A stretch of 64,000 nt of DNA. Origin: Actinomycetota bacterium. Its GTDB lineage: Bacteria > Actinomycetota > Thermoleophilia > Solirubrobacterales > Solirubrobacteraceae. The DNA lies in NCBI GenBank assembly GCA_018268595.1, contig JAFDWH010000014.1:124001-188000 (forward strand). The letters are read 5' to 3'. The first letter of the stretch is position 1; each line of letters starts with the position of its first letter. The position numbers and the translations under genes were made by a program. Below are positions 58,022 through 63,212 of the stretch, one piece after another. The notes under the pieces are model-generated. The model had not been told where the DNA came from. It ran no database searches and saw only the letters and a list, made by a program, of their open reading frames with translations.

Positions 58022-58531
58022 TCACGTCGCGAGCGGCTCGAGCAGCCGGTGCGGCGTGCGCAGCGCGCGTGTGACCGGGTCGTCACGCTGGCTGGGACGG
58101 AGCGCGACCACCACGACGTCCTCCGGTTCCGGCGTCGTGCCGCACGACGGGCACGCGCCGAGGTCGTCGAGCGTCGTCCCGCATGGGGCGTGCTGGAAGG
58201 CGCGGATGTCCCCGGTGGGGCTGCGGCGCCGTCCCCACACCAGCAGCGCGTGCAGCGCCGGCCACAGCGCGCGTCCGTCGACCGTCAGCTCGTAGCGGTG
58301 GCGTCCGGCGTGGTCGGGGTCGGGGCGGCGGACGAGCAGGCCGTGCTCGACGAGTCCGCTGAGGCGCTCGGAGAGGACCGCTCGCGGGATGTCGAGGTGC
58401 GCCTGGAAGTCGTTGAAGCGCTGCACGCCGTAGAAGGCGTCGCGCACGATCAGCAGGGTCCAGCGCTCGCCGATCGCGTCGAGCGAGCGCGCGATCGTGC
58501 AGTCCTGGCCCTCGTAGCGCTTGCCGAGCAT
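58022..58531 (-). CDS. HxlR-family transcriptional regulator
   Basis: A 169-residue regulator. The winged helix reads CTIARSLDAIGERWTLLIVRDA, FYGVQRFNDFQAHLDIPRAV and LSERLSGLVEHGLLVRR, the HxlR hallmark. A C-terminal extension carries a CGTTLDD...CPSCGTT zinc-like site. ATG at 58531 is preceded by TATCCT, 8 bases upstream. It is divergent from an MFS gene and probably controls it. Confidence 0.93.
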   Translation of the reverse strand: MLGKRYEGQDCTIARSLDAIGERWTLLIVRDAFYGVQRFNDFQAHLDIPRAVLSERLSGLVEHGLLVRRPDPDHAGRHRYELTVDGRALWPALHALLVWGRRRSPTGDIRAFQHAPCGTTLDDLGACPSCGTTPEPEDVVVVALRPSQRDDPVTRALRTPHRLLEPLAT

Positions 58532-58539
58532 CTCCTGCA

Positions 58540-58545
58540 AGGATA
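58540..58545 (-). promoter_or_regulatory. -10 element of the hxlR-type gene
   Basis: Reverse-strand TATCCT ends 8 bases before the ATG at 58531. Confidence 0.45.
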
Positions 58546-58556
58546 TCGCCCGGCAG

Positions 58557-58606
58557 TTCGGTGATCGAACCGAGACCTGGTAGGGTCGGTTCAATGAACG
58601 AACCGA
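58557..58606 (+). promoter_or_regulatory. MFS gene promoter with two inverted-repeat operators
   Basis: TTCGGT (58557-58562), an 18-base spacer and TAGGGT (58581-58586) precede the ATG at 58594 by 7 bases. Two related inverted repeats flank the -10: TCGGT-N6-ACCGA (58558-58573) and TCGGTTC-N7-GAACCGA (58586-58606), the latter covering the start codon. They are good HxlR operator candidates. Confidence 0.55.
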
Positions 58607-59829
58607 ACGCACGCACACGGAGCGCTTGGGTGGCCGTCGCCGCGATCCTGCTGGGGACCGGCTGGGGCTCGAACCAGATCACGCCGATGCTGCTCGTCTA
58701 CAGCGACCGGCTCGGCCTCACGACCGGGACGCTCCAGGCGATGTTCGGCGTCTACGCGCTCGGGCTGATCCCCGGGCTGCTGCTTGCCGGGCCGCTGTCC
58801 GACACGCGCGGCCGGCGCGGCGTCGTGCTGCCGGCGGCCGCGCTCTCGCTGCTGGCGACCGTCACGCTGATCGCCGGCGGTCACCACACCTGGCTGCTGT
58901 TCGTCGCGCGGCTGCTCAACGGCGTCAGCAACGGCGCCGTCTTCGGCGTCGGCACCGCCTGGCTGCGCGAGGTCTCGCTGCCGCCGTTCGGCGCGGCGGG
59001 GGCGCACACGATCGCGCGCCGCGCCGCCGTCGCGATGACGGCCGGCTTCGCGTTCGGGCCGCTCCTCGCCGGACTGCTCGCGCAGTGGGCGCCCGATCCG
59101 CTGCTCGTGCCCTACGTGCCGCACCTCGTGCTGATGACCGCCGCGCTCGTCGCGGTGCGCACCGTGCCGGAGACCGTTCCCTCCGGCCGGAGCCGCGGCG
59201 GCGCGCGCCTGCGACTGGAGGACGTGCGCAGCCCGCGCTTCTGGCGCATCGTCGCGCCGATGGCGCCGTGGGGGTTCGCGGCGACGGCGGTGGCGGTCGC
59301 GCTGCTGCCGAGCCTCACCGGCGCCGCGGACGCCGCGCAGGGGATCGCCCTGACCGCGTCGATCGCCGCGCTGTGCGCGCTCGCCGGCGTGCTGATCCAG
59401 CCGCTGGCGCGTCGCCTCGACGCCGGCGGCGCGGGCAACCGCGCCGCGCTCGCCGGCCTCGCGACGACGGCGGCCGGGATGCTGCTCGCCGCCGTCACGG
59501 CCGCGAGCGAGCAGATCTGGCTGTTGGTCCCGTGCGCGCTCGTCTTCGGCGCCGCCTACGGCCTGATCCTGGTCGCCGGCCTGGTCGAGGTCCAGCGGCT
59601 CGCCGAGCCACGCGCCCTGGCCAGCCTCACGGCCGTCTACTACGCGCTCACGTACGCCGGCTTCGCGCTGCCGGTCGTGTTGGCCGCGCTCGCCGGCGGC
59701 CTCGGCTACCCGCTGCTGCTGACGATCTGCGCCGTGCTCGTGCTGGCCACGGCTGCGTGGGTCACGCCTCGCGGCGCCATGCGCCCGAGCGACCGCCCGA
59801 CTTCTCCAGCAGAGCAACCTGTTCGATGA
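58594..59829 (+). CDS. Major facilitator superfamily transporter
   Basis: An MFS protein of 411 residues with about twelve helices. The loop 2-3 motif reads [17 protein letters not shown] near residue 75, and [20 protein letters not shown] follows near 110. A hydrophilic loop lies mid-protein (about residues 200-220). Control by the adjacent HxlR protein suggests drug or metabolite export. Its 3' end overlaps convergent moaC by 68 bases. Confidence 0.9.
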
Positions 59830-60241
59830 CGACGCCGCGCTCGAGCGCCTTGACCATGTCGTAAACGGTCAGCGCCGCGACCGAGGCGGCCGTCAGCGCC
59901 TCCATCTCGACGCCCGTCTGCGCGCTCGTGCGCGCCTCCGCGACGAGCGTCACCGTGCCGGCGTCGGCGTCGATCTCGGCCGCGACGTCGACGTAGGACA
60001 GCGGGAGCTGATGGCACAACGGGATCAGCTCCCACGTGCGCTTCGCCGCCTGGATCCCCGCGATCCGCGCCGGGCCCAGCACGTCACCCTTCGGCGCGTC
60101 GCCGTCGCGCACAGCCGCGGCGGTCGCCGGCGACATCCGCACGACCGCGCGCGCGAGCGCGCGGCGGGCGGTCACGTCCTTGGCGCCGACGTCGACCATC
60201 CGTGCGCGACCGGCGTCGTCGAGATGCGTCAGCTCGCTCAC
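59762..60241 (-). CDS. moaC: Cyclic pyranopterin monophosphate synthase
   Basis: MoaC, 159 residues, forms cPMP with MoaA in molybdenum cofactor synthesis. Markers are [14 protein letters not shown] near residue 14, [20 protein letters not shown] near 65 with the substrate His and Cys, and [21 protein letters not shown] near 110. GTG at 60241. It begins 32 bases after the sigma/amidotransferase gene on the same strand. Confidence 0.95.
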
Positions 60242-60273
60242 GCGGCGAAGTGTCGCACGCGTGCGCGGGCCGC

Positions 60274-61458
60274 TCAGGCCGCGACCGCCGGCGGCTCCGC
60301 GGCCGCGTGCCGCAGTGCCGCGTCGGCGAGCGCGTCGCGCACGCGCCGGCCGGAGATGCCGGCCTCCGGCAGCTCGGCGTGCCACTGCACGCCGACCGCG
60401 AACGGATGGCGCGGGTCCTCGACACCCTCGACGATCCCGTCGGCCGAGCGCGCGGTCACGCGCAGGCCGGCGCCGAGCCGGTCGATCGCCTGGTGGTGGA
60501 GGCTCGGCACGCTCGCGCGCGGCCCGACGATCCGCCGCGTCAACGAGTCGCCCCCGGTCGCGACCGCGTGCATGCGGCGGTCGGCGTGCAGCTCGGGCCG
60601 CTCCGTCGCGCCCTCCGAGCCGAGGTCCTGGTGGAGCGTCCCGCCGTGCAAGACGTTGAGGAGCTGGTGACCGCGGCAGATGCCGAGCACCGGCAGGCCG
60701 CCCGCGAGCGCGTCGCGCAGGATCGCCGCGTCGGCGCGGTCCCCGTCGAGGCTGCCGGCGCGCGCGCTGCGGATCTGCTGGCCGTAGAGCGCCGGGTGGA
60801 CGTCCTCGTCGGCGCCCGTCAGCACGAGCGCGTGCGCGGTCGCGAGCTGGCGCGCTGCCGCCTGCCCGTCGGCGACGCGCTGCACGCGCAGCTCCGCGCC
60901 GCCCAGCCAGCGCTCGTACGGGGCCGGGTCCTCGTCGCGCACGAGCAGCAGCACGAGCGGTCGCGTGGCCGGGGCGGTTGCCGCGTACGCGCGGCGGAAG
61001 CGCTCGCGGGCGCGCGCGAGCCGCTTGCGCGCCGCCTCCGGCGTCGTCTGCAGCAGGCGCGCCGCGTCGGTCGGCCCGTAGCCGGCGAACTGCAGCGTCA
61101 CGAGCGCCCGCTCGCGCGCCGGGAGCTGCGCGAGCGCCGTCTCGATCGCGAGCCGCTCGTCGTGGTCCTCGGCCTCCGGGGCGGCGGCGCGCTCGAGCGC
61201 GTCGAGCAGCGCGCCGTCGGATGCGATCCCGCCCACCCGCCCGGCCCGCGCGCGCAGCGCGTCGATCGCGACGTTCGTCGCGACGCGGTAGAGCCAGGCG
61301 CGCAGGCGCGGGTCGGTGAGGCCGGCGGGCGCGTGCAGCCAGGCGCGCAGGAAGACCTCCTGCGCGAGGTCCTCGGCGAGCGAGGGGTCGCCGACGCGGC
61401 GGCGCAGGTGGCGCTCGAGCGGCCGGCGGTGGGTGGCGATGAGCGTGTCGAGGTCCAT
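60274..61458 (-). CDS. ECF sigma factor fused to a class I glutamine amidotransferase-like (peptidase C26) domain
   Basis: A 394-residue protein joining two families in one uninterrupted frame. Residues 1-165 are an ECF sigma factor: region 2 has [15 protein letters not shown] and [18 protein letters not shown], region 4 has [18 protein letters not shown] and [17 protein letters not shown]. Residues 167-394 match PuuD-type gamma-glutamyl hydrolases: [14 protein letters not shown] near 213, [17 protein letters not shown] with Cys261, SLHHQAID, and GVQWHAE with His360 and Glu362. All triad residues are present. No anti-sigma gene is adjacent. I infer a sigma factor controlled by, or coupled to, a gamma-glutamyl metabolite. 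Confidence 0.88.
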
Positions 61459-61588
61459 GCCGGTGAAGACGGATCGCGGCCCGCGAAGCGGACGTGTCCG
61501 GTCCGCGTGATGGCGTGCGTCCTCATCGTCATGCACCAGACGCTCCACGTCCACTTCGTCGCCGGCCGCCAGGCGGCGCTCGCCGGGC

Positions 61589-62326
61589 TCAGGCCGGCGC
61601 GTGCGTCCGCTGCGCGGCCGCGATCAGGTCGAGCACGGCTCGCTCGTCGCCCGCGCGCAGCAGCTCGATCGGGTCCGGCGAGCCGTTGACGATCGACTCG
61701 AAGAAGTCCTTGCGGTCCTGATAGGTCGGCAGCGTCGCCTTCGCCCACCCGCGCGCGTCGTTGAGCATGACCGCCAGGCGCGCGTAGTCCTCGCCGAACA
61801 GCTCGCCGATCTCGCGCTTCATGCGCTTGGCCAGCGCCGGCGAGGCGCCGGCGGTCGAGATCGCGATCGCGAGCGGGCCGCTGCGGACGATCGCCGGCAG
61901 GATGAAGTTGCACAGCGGCGGCACGTCGACGACGTTGACGAGCATCGCGCGCCGCTCCGCGTCCTCGTAGACGCCGATGTTGACCTCGGAGTCGTTCGTC
62001 GCGGTGATCACCATGAACGCGCCTTCGAGGTCGGACGGCTCGTAGGGCCGTGCTTGCCACGCGATCGAGCCCTCGTCTGACAGGCCCCGCAGCTGCGGAT
62101 GCAGCTCCGGCGCGACGACCGTCACGTCGCCGTCGCAGGCGAGCAGGCCCTCGACCTTCTCCAAGCCGACGTCGCCGCCGCCGACGACGAGGCAGCGCCG
62201 CCCCTTCAGCTTCAGGCAGGCGACGTAGAAGGGCGTCTCGAGCATGTCCCGCACGCACGACTGGTCGCAGATCCCCTTGCGGAGCTGACAGACGCACTCC
62301 TTGCCGCTGTAGGCCTGGGCGGGCAT
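61589..62326 (-). CDS. Precorrin-2 dehydrogenase / sirohydrochlorin ferrochelatase-like protein
   Basis: A 245-residue Met8/CysG-N-type protein for siroheme synthesis. The NAD-binding motif is [18 protein letters not shown] near residue 45. [24 protein letters not shown] follows near 110, and the dimerisation region has [19 protein letters not shown] near 155. The N-terminus is unusual: residues 9-25 carry four Cys ([14 protein letters not shown]), a possible metal or Fe-S site not typical of the family. ATG at 62326 lies 7 bases after TACCCT. Confidence 0.9.
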
Positions 62327-62333
62327 CGGCTTG

Positions 62334-62339
62334 AGGGTA
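62334..62339 (-). promoter_or_regulatory. Leaderless -10 element of the precorrin-2 dehydrogenase gene
   Basis: Reverse-strand TACCCT ends 7 bases before the ATG at 62326. Confidence 0.5.
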
Positions 62340-62374
62340 TCGCGAGGCTGCGGGGTGGCGGCGTGCTGCCCGGC

Positions 62375-62380
62375 TACCCT
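62375..62380 (+). promoter_or_regulatory. Leaderless -10 element of the DUF2236 gene
   Basis: TACCCT ends 7 bases before the ATG at 62388, divergent from and mirroring the element at 62334-62339. Confidence 0.5.
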
Positions 62381-62387
62381 GGGTCGC

Positions 62388-63212
62388 ATGGGGAACGTCG
62401 AGGGGGTCTACCCGAACGACGCGGTCATCCGCCGCCTCTACCGCGAGCACGTGATGATGCTCGCCGGCCCGCGCGCGCTGCTGATGCAGGCCGCGCACCC
62501 GGTCGCGTGGGCCGGCTTCTACGCCCAGACCACCTCGAAGGACGAGCCGTACGAGCGGCTGCACCGCACCGCGCAGATCGTCGAGCTGGTCACGTACGGC
62601 CCGCGTAGAGAGGCCGAGCGCGCCACGCGCCGCGTGCGCGCGATGCACGGGAAGGTGCGCGGCGAGCTGCACGAGGCCGCCGGCAACTTCCCGGCCGGCA
62701 CGCCATACGCGGCCGACGACCCCGAGCTGCTGCTGTGGATCCTCGCCACGCTCGTCGACTCCGGCATGACCGTCTACCAGCGCTACGTCTGTCGGCTGAC
62801 GCTGGACGAGCGTGAGTCGCTGTGGCAGGAGTACCGCGTCTTCGGTCGCCTGTTCGGCCTGCCCGACACGGCGATGCCCGCCACCTACGAGGACTTCCGC
62901 CGCTACCTGCGGCGCATGCTCGACGGCGACGAGTTGTTCGTGACCGAGGAGGCGCGCACGACCGCGCGGCAGATCGTGATGCGCCCGCCCGTGCCGCTCG
63001 CGGCGCGTCCGCTGCTCGAGCTGGCGAACTTCGTGACCGTCGGGCTGCTGCCGCCGCGCATCCGCCGCATGTACGGCTTCTCGTGGGACCCGGCGCGCGG
63101 GCTGGCGCTGTTCGGCCACACCGAGTACGCGCGGCGCGTGCTCGTGCCGTTGCTGCCGGGACGGCTGCGCTACGCCAACCGCGCGCAACTGACCGCCCGC
63201 GCCGCCGCCTGA
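62388..63212 (+). CDS. DUF2236 / oxygenase MpaB family protein
   Basis: A 274-residue helical protein of the DUF2236 group, which includes latex-clearing protein and MpaB-type heme oxygenases. Family features are [19 protein letters not shown] near residue 30 with the candidate heme-ligand His, VRAMHGKV near 85, and [14 protein letters not shown] near 108. [13 protein letters not shown] lies near 150. No signal peptide is seen. The substrate is unknown. Confidence 0.85.

Follow-up and report, generated by a model that had tools for sequence, protein, structure and literature searches.

An ECF sigma factor and a C26 amidotransferase domain in one reading frame

The gene described here lies in a 64,000-nucleotide stretch of DNA (hereafter, the window) from a soil bacterium of the Solirubrobacteraceae (GenBank assembly GCA_018268595.1, contig JAFDWH010000014.1, positions 124,001 to 188,000). 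It encodes an extracytoplasmic function (ECF) sigma factor joined to a class I amidotransferase domain of the C26 type (Table 1). The original prediction had placed both domains in a single uninterrupted frame, and translation bore this out: 394 codons are followed by a stop, with no internal stop codon. The Pfam matches to Sigma70_r2, Sigma70_r4_2, Peptidase_C26 (E 1.4e-43, residues 188-362) and GATase (E 2.2e-11, residues 246-362) all exceed their curated cut-offs. The protein also passed the NCBIfam sigma70-ECF model, with 66.5 bits against a cut-off of 42.9. The sigma part has the composition by which ECF factors are recognized, namely regions 2 and 4 only, in about 160 residues, as does that of the orthologue at locus L016. 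Cys261, His360 and Glu362 were found where they had been predicted, giving the window protein the class I amidotransferase arrangement of a cysteine nucleophile with histidine and glutamate.

The open reading frame (ORF), when delimited mechanically, extends upstream to a GTG at 61554. We preferred the ATG at 61458 because six orthologues of the genus start with Met-Asp-Leu-Asp at the matching position of the alignment and because a promoter lies immediately upstream of it. By sequence, the nearest solved relatives are ECF sigma factors for the N-terminal part and the C26 hydrolases PuuD (6vtv), Lin1909 (3fij) and 7d4r for the C-terminal part; these three hydrolases lack a sigma part. At E 1e-5 the protein matched 47 PDB sequences, not one of which spans both parts.

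Table 1. Features of the fusion gene and its neighbours, with positions counted in the window
Feature	Position	Strand	Evidence or remark
ECF sigma factor-C26 amidotransferase fusion gene	60274..61458	-	ATG 61458, stop at 60274; 394 aa plus stop; ORF, Pfam, orthologues
Sigma-70 region 2, residues 6-72	61243..61443	-	Pfam Sigma70_r2, E 3.9e-16
Sigma-70 region 4, residues 103-153	61000..61152	-	Pfam Sigma70_r4_2, E 4.2e-9
Junction between region 4 and first C26 strand, about residues 155-166	60961..60996	-	Alignment of fused orthologues
C26 class I amidotransferase domain, residues 167-394	60277..60960	-	Pfam match 188-362; separate clade versus 10 stand-alone C26 domains
Cys261 codon, nucleophile by homology, only cysteine in the protein	60676..60678	-	Conservation in orthologues
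His360, Ala361 and Glu362 codons	60373..60381	-	Alignment of orthologues
ECF-type promoter: -35 GTCCGCTT, 14-base spacer, -10 CGTCT	61467..61493	-	Ends 8 bases before the ATG
Siroheme-synthase-type NAD-binding protein, upstream neighbour	61589..62389	-	NAD_binding_7, E 1.1e-33; Sirohm_synth_M
moaC, starting 20 bases downstream of the fusion	59762..60253	-	MoaC, E 4.2e-54

The fusion is conserved within the Solirubrobacterales

A search of the order showed that a single match crosses the junction in at least 27 of 232 Solirubrobacterales genomes, so the conservation of the junction that had been put forward as a check was indeed observed. This figure is a lower bound, at most eight candidates per genome having been scored. 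The genomes comprise all seven of Conexibacter and 20 others, covering 12 genera and two families. Of the 27 matches, 21 are near full length; the remaining six are incomplete at contig ends (L028, L032 and L034), at runs of N (L029 and L035) or through an apparent double frameshift (L030). Several matches count one stop codon, positioned at the extreme end of the match. The prediction had named two findings that would count against a genuine fusion, homologues always encoded as separate genes and a frameshift near residue 165; both were looked for, and both came out in favour of the fusion. Among the C26 loci inspected, none had the two domains as adjacent separate genes divided by a stop at the junction, and the stand-alone loci (L263-L265, L267-L269, L002, L036 and L037; L266 was left out) are ordinary full-length C26 frames.

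Outside the order, no junction-crossing match was found among those listed from 399 genomes of the class and 396 of the phylum (thresholds E 1e-45 and 1e-50; both samples include Solirubrobacterales genomes), and the listed matches from outside the order start at model position 170 or later. In a pattern scan of contigs from 84,980 species, two Conexibacter loci among the 80 listed match nearly the whole protein, the other 78 matching the sigma part alone or slightly beyond it.

When 24 fused C26 domains were placed in a tree with 10 stand-alone ones, the fused domains formed one clade with branch support of 100/100. From region 4 to the first C26 strand, the linker is near-constant in the alignment rows counted, at about 11 to 13 residues; judged by codon positions 1 and 2, no stretch changes faster within Conexibacter than the junction. 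Nonsynonymous rates (dN) are below synonymous rates (dS) in the sigma and C26 domains alike, for 21 of 21 Conexibacter pairs. The distribution fits best a single joining event, probably followed by descent with frequent loss or by limited transfer.

Some copies depart from the common form. The orthologue in genome G069 (L137:7974-8897) has an apparent double frameshift and lacks the exact promoter motif; it may be decaying, or the sequence may be in error. In G030 (L143:3-773), a peptide resembling tetratricopeptide repeats (TPR; Pfam match under cut-off), in place of sigma region 4, runs in frame into a C26 domain that belongs to the fused clade; as the contig begins there, this may be either a different architecture or a chimeric contig. 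G141 (L130:9176-9850) and G140 (L131) carry a partial duplicate of the 5' end of the fusion, with its own promoter copy, just upstream of the intact gene; in G141, a small ORF lies between the two.

The fusion gene carries a putative ECF-type promoter

The upstream regions of the 22 orthologues read share a pair of boxes, GTCCG(C/G)T(T/C) and CGTC(T/A), separated by 14 bases. In most orthologues the start codon follows the boxes after 8 to 12 bases (after 19 in L027), and the sequence around the boxes is little conserved. Of the 26 loci that hold the upstream region, 23 have the exact pattern; the exceptions are L018, with a -10 box of CGTTG, L026, with TGTCACA and CGTT at the same spacing, and L030, with none. 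By its sequence, this is the kind of bipartite element that ECF sigma factors are expected to have before their own gene, and from its presence at 23 of the 26 loci we consider that the fusion gene probably drives itself. In the window, the pattern GTCCGSTT-N13-15-CGTC (S, C or G) occurs once, at 61468-61493 on the minus strand. Shuffled versions of the window contained a mean of 0.07 hits, with 7 of 100 shuffles containing one.

Few other genes share the promoter motif

In the genome of origin, five hits of this pattern were inspected, and the two that precede gene starts belong to the fusion and to an alpha/beta hydrolase with a hydrophobic N-terminus. The form of the pattern ending in W (T or A) was counted in 28 genomes, the 27 with the fusion and G030; it occurred 86 times, the reversed pattern 18 times. 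Twenty-five of the 86 belong to the fusion itself or to partial copies of its 5' end, leaving 61 elsewhere. In 28 genomes of the family that lack the fusion, the same form gave 33 hits against 34 reversed.

Of the 61 non-self hits, 59 were inspected as stretches and a sixtieth separately; the latter precedes a small ORF directly downstream of the fusion in G060. Six of the 59 (L185, L189, L197, L199, L221 and L225) fall in no coding-like frame and are followed, after 3-25 bases, by a coding-like ORF of at least 100 aa. None of 30 hits examined (of 33) did so in the genomes lacking the fusion. This gene-start test misses real sites, since just 11 of 22 hits near true fusion genes pass it, one of them before the small ORF in G060.

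We consider targets shared between genomes to be stronger evidence than gene-start counts. The alpha/beta hydrolase was found in four of 12 genomes searched, as Conexibacter orthologues, and has the motif in all four, ending CGTCC in three and CGTCA in one. An amidotransferase-like protein was found in two of 27 genomes searched, with the motif in both. This second class I amidotransferase-like protein with the promoter motif of the fusion (L185:1667-2380:- and L197:1658-2344:-) has His-Pro-Gln where C26 has His-Pro-Glu. A cupin is preceded by the motif in two genomes, G060 and G066, and in G062 the gene next downstream of the fusion encodes a close cupin. The whole-genome motif counts disagree with one another; we read them as pointing to a small target set and as mixed evidence for a wider regulon.

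Two candidates were rejected. A gene of the OsmC type has the exact motif in G086 alone of six orthologues; the sequence in G081 differs from it by a single base, G084 and G085 show just the -10 box, and nothing was seen in G083 or the genome of origin. The additional copies of the motif close to the fusion of G140 and G141 belong to the partial duplicates of its own 5' end. Separately, an ORF of 68-70 aa in two Conexibacter genomes, G081 and G086 (L207:2177-2386:- and L226:2222-2425:-), gave no Pfam match; the motif stands 33 bases ahead of it, and the spacer is almost the same in the two genomes.

The fused C26 domain appears to be a remodelled subfamily

The nucleophilic cysteine is present in all 25 fused sequences listed, and in seven of seven Conexibacter orthologues it is the sole cysteine of the whole protein. 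Of the 24 fused sequences that can be read at His360 and Glu362, 22 retain both, a count that leaves out L030, L032, L034 and L035, which are cut, gapped or frameshifted earlier. The predicted intact triad therefore holds for the window protein and most of its relatives, and fails in two of them. In G063 (L016), lysine and glutamine replace the histidine and glutamate, with the cysteine kept and both sigma regions and the promoter intact. In G062 (L029), both residues are replaced by glutamine, again with the cysteine kept and the promoter intact, most of the sigma part there being unread N. The two sit on separate branches of the tree with modest support between them (82/83), which would fit either one loss or two. 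Given these replacements, hydrolysis cannot be required in every member, and the retention of the cysteine in both lineages favours binding or cysteine chemistry over obligatory hydrolysis.

The domain had been called PuuD-like, which was only partly borne out. The Peptidase_C26 match is clear, but the match to the NCBIfam PuuD model (7.3e-21) falls under its cut-off, and the span from the first-strand proline to a conserved tyrosine or phenylalanine measures 14-18 residues in all 22 fused domains compared and 28-35 in all 10 stand-alone ones. The substrate of PuuD should therefore not be assumed. Compared with the 10 stand-alone domains, the fused form keeps the His-His-Gln motif, most glycines, Glu344 and Glu347, and several other conserved residues are altered. 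Because of the shortened span and these changes, we regard the fused C26 domain as a remodelled subfamily, by sequence, rather than a PuuD merely attached to a sigma factor. A suspected loss of a glycine in the oxyanion region, relative to the 10 stand-alone domains, was dropped, as 7d4r, with a loop of equal length, also lacks the second glycine.

Comparison with known regulators

The nearest parallel is ECF41, which PMC3426412 describes with a fused regulatory C-terminus, a TGTCACA-N16-CGTC promoter and one target transcript. ECF41 (PMC3426412 and PMC8999054) and the fusion share an ECF core with a fused C-terminal domain, no adjacent anti-sigma factor, a promoter before their own gene and very few targets. 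The promoters are alike in having a TGTC-type -35 box, a CGTC -10 box and equal spacing, that of the fusion being written TGTCCGS-N16-CGTC. They differ in that the -35 box of the fusion is GTCCGSTY (Y, T or C) in 23 of 26 loci rather than TGTCACA, the exception being L026 (TGTCACA with CGTT). The extension is SnoaL-type in ECF41 and Peptidase_C26 here, with no SnoaL match at E 0.01 in Pfam. The targets found for the fusion include no carboxymuconolactone decarboxylase, oxidoreductase or epimerase, in contrast to those given for ECF41. ECF42 (PMC8999054) likewise has a C-terminal extension of about 200 residues and no anti-sigma factor; its extension is made of TPR, whereas the fusion gave no TPR match at E 0.01 and instead has an enzyme-type fold with a nucleophile. 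Amidotransferase-like domains occur in transcription regulators of the GATR family, such as GbdR and CdhR, which PMC5806209 describes as having a glutamine amidotransferase-1-like domain. The likeness lies in the use of such a domain in a transcription regulator, and the DNA-reading part is AraC-type there and an RNA polymerase sigma factor here.

We found no description in the open literature of a sigma factor fused to an amidotransferase or C26 domain, and the word "amidotransferase" did not occur in the main text of the ECF reviews that were word-searched; the 2021 ECF reclassification may already list such a group. According to a 2022 review (PMC8999054), members of at least 26 ECF groups carry extensions, and 15 of those groups are still to be studied. 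ECF sigma factors with fused regulatory domains are known; the present extension has a fold whose pocket and nucleophile are well understood. As the promoter, a small target set and natural variants lacking His and Glu are also available, the way in which a fused domain turns a sigma factor on and off can be tested directly on a single protein and promoter with a handful of point mutations.

A candidate ligand-gated sigma factor

The conservation of the joined form as a single clade that retains its cysteine, together with its own promoter in many related species and at a few shared targets, suggests a sigma factor carrying its own chemical sensor. We therefore favour, with moderate confidence, a reading in which the gene would encode an autoregulated ECF sigma factor of narrow regulon, with the fused C26 domain in place of an anti-sigma factor, as in ECF41. 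The absence of an adjacent anti-sigma gene had been predicted, and by Pfam neither flanking gene in the window encodes one. The proposal that the extension replaces an anti-sigma factor thus gains from the conserved fusion, these flanks, the putative self-promoter and the few targets, by analogy with ECF41.

We infer that regions 2 and 4 would guide RNA polymerase to (T)GTCCG(C/G)T(T/C)-N14-CGTC promoters, its own and a handful of others. Tethered about a dozen residues from region 4, the C26 domain would do the work of an anti-sigma factor and keep the sigma part inactive (or active) until a ligand arrives. The ligand may be a small compound that contains a glutamine-like or gamma-glutamyl-like moiety and fills the pocket around Cys261, and its occupancy could alter how the C26 domain is seated on regions 2 and 4. 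The simplest reading would thus be a ligand-gated sigma factor. The ligand might be hydrolysed, merely bound or made to react with the cysteine; obligatory hydrolysis is disfavoured by the two lineages that have lost His and Glu. A bolder version, which we hold to be doubtful, is a sigma factor that consumes a metabolite: the C26 domain would hydrolyse a gamma-glutamyl compound or trap a thioester on its single cysteine, this covalent or bound state would directly set polymerase activity, and the lineages without His and Glu would be pure binding sensors. If true, one protein would be sensor, timer and transcription switch.

Several observations weigh against the ligand-gated reading. The fusion is present in just 27 of 232 genomes of the order, as a lower bound. 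In the genome of origin, GTCCGSTT-N13-15-CGTC gave 8 hits against 7 for the reversed pattern, and the difference between 6 of 59 and 0 of 30 in the gene-start test is weak alone (about 0.08, one-sided). A motif with TT fixed and any last base was not enriched in 25 genomes (81 hits against 64 reversed; 20 at the fusion or partial copies, 61 others), and 20 hits read singly yielded no convincing new target, so that a larger regulon was rejected. Cupins matched 28 times, in 22 of 27 genomes, and the motif precedes only the two in G060 and G066; the exact motif is absent from the close form in G061 and from the remaining matches. The neighbours give no clue to the ligand, what recurs being a cofactor cluster in Conexibacter and a small ORF (other genera were clustered, mostly unannotated). 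An AlphaFold2 model built from three sequences had a predicted local distance difference test score (pLDDT) of 41 and was set aside, no domain contact being readable.

We weighed four other explanations. The C26 domain could be an active gamma-glutamyl hydrolase, with sigma activity tracking turnover and the factor destroying its own signal. The cysteine in 25 of 25 sequences and the His and Glu in 22 of 24 are consistent with this, as are the loop of residues 213-222, which aligns without gaps to 7d4r (solved as a "probable glutamine amidotransferase"), the match of the profile to Escherichia coli PuuD (6vtv) and the NCBIfam PuuD match, though under cut-off. We nevertheless consider it unlikely, as G063 has lost His and Glu with its sigma regions and promoter intact, G062 has lost them with its promoter intact and its sigma part mostly unread N, and the stretch after the first strand is at least 10 residues shorter than in all 10 stand-alone relatives.

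Oxidation or alkylation of a pocket cysteine, as proposed for DJ-1-type relatives sharing this fold, could instead free the sigma part. Such a thiol switch would suit a cysteine that is the only one in all seven Conexibacter proteins and persists in every fused sequence, even where His and Glu are lost, and the OsmC-type gene of G086 carries the motif. The rest of the pocket (His-His-Gln, the glycines, Glu344 and Glu347) is conserved too, which fits ligand binding; the OsmC motif is exact in one of six genomes and missing from the orthologue in the genome of origin. We judge this switch quite unlikely.

It is also improbable that a constitutive sigma factor and an independent C26 enzyme are merely joined, without gating. 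The Conexibacter gene does sit in a housekeeping cofactor cluster (siroheme, MoaC, MogA and Ccm), but the near-constant linker and single clade across genera with otherwise different neighbours, and the loss of the catalytic pair while the rest of the domain is kept, speak for a coupled protein. Finally, a frameshift or assembly error fusing two genes, to which the apparent double frameshift in G069 might lend some colour, was ruled out for practical purposes by at least 27 genomes of 12 genera whose orthologues cross the junction in one frame.

Genomic neighbourhood

In the window, the order is the siroheme-type dehydrogenase gene, the fusion, moaC, and then mogA and ccm genes. By clustering, a moaC-type gene follows the fusion in seven of seven loci of the genus and a siroheme-type gene precedes it in six of seven. 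We consider moaC probably co-transcribed with the fusion; as it starts so close downstream, the sigma-type promoter may also feed it. An HxlR-type regulator and an MFS transporter (window 58022-59829) lie between moaC and mogA, and are absent from the six other loci of the genus compared.

Outside Conexibacter, the nearest neighbours of the fusion vary, apart from a small conserved ORF, for which three members tested matched no Pfam family. This ORF adjoins the fusion in five genomes of three genera (L124:9169-9561, L129, L132, L133 and L130).
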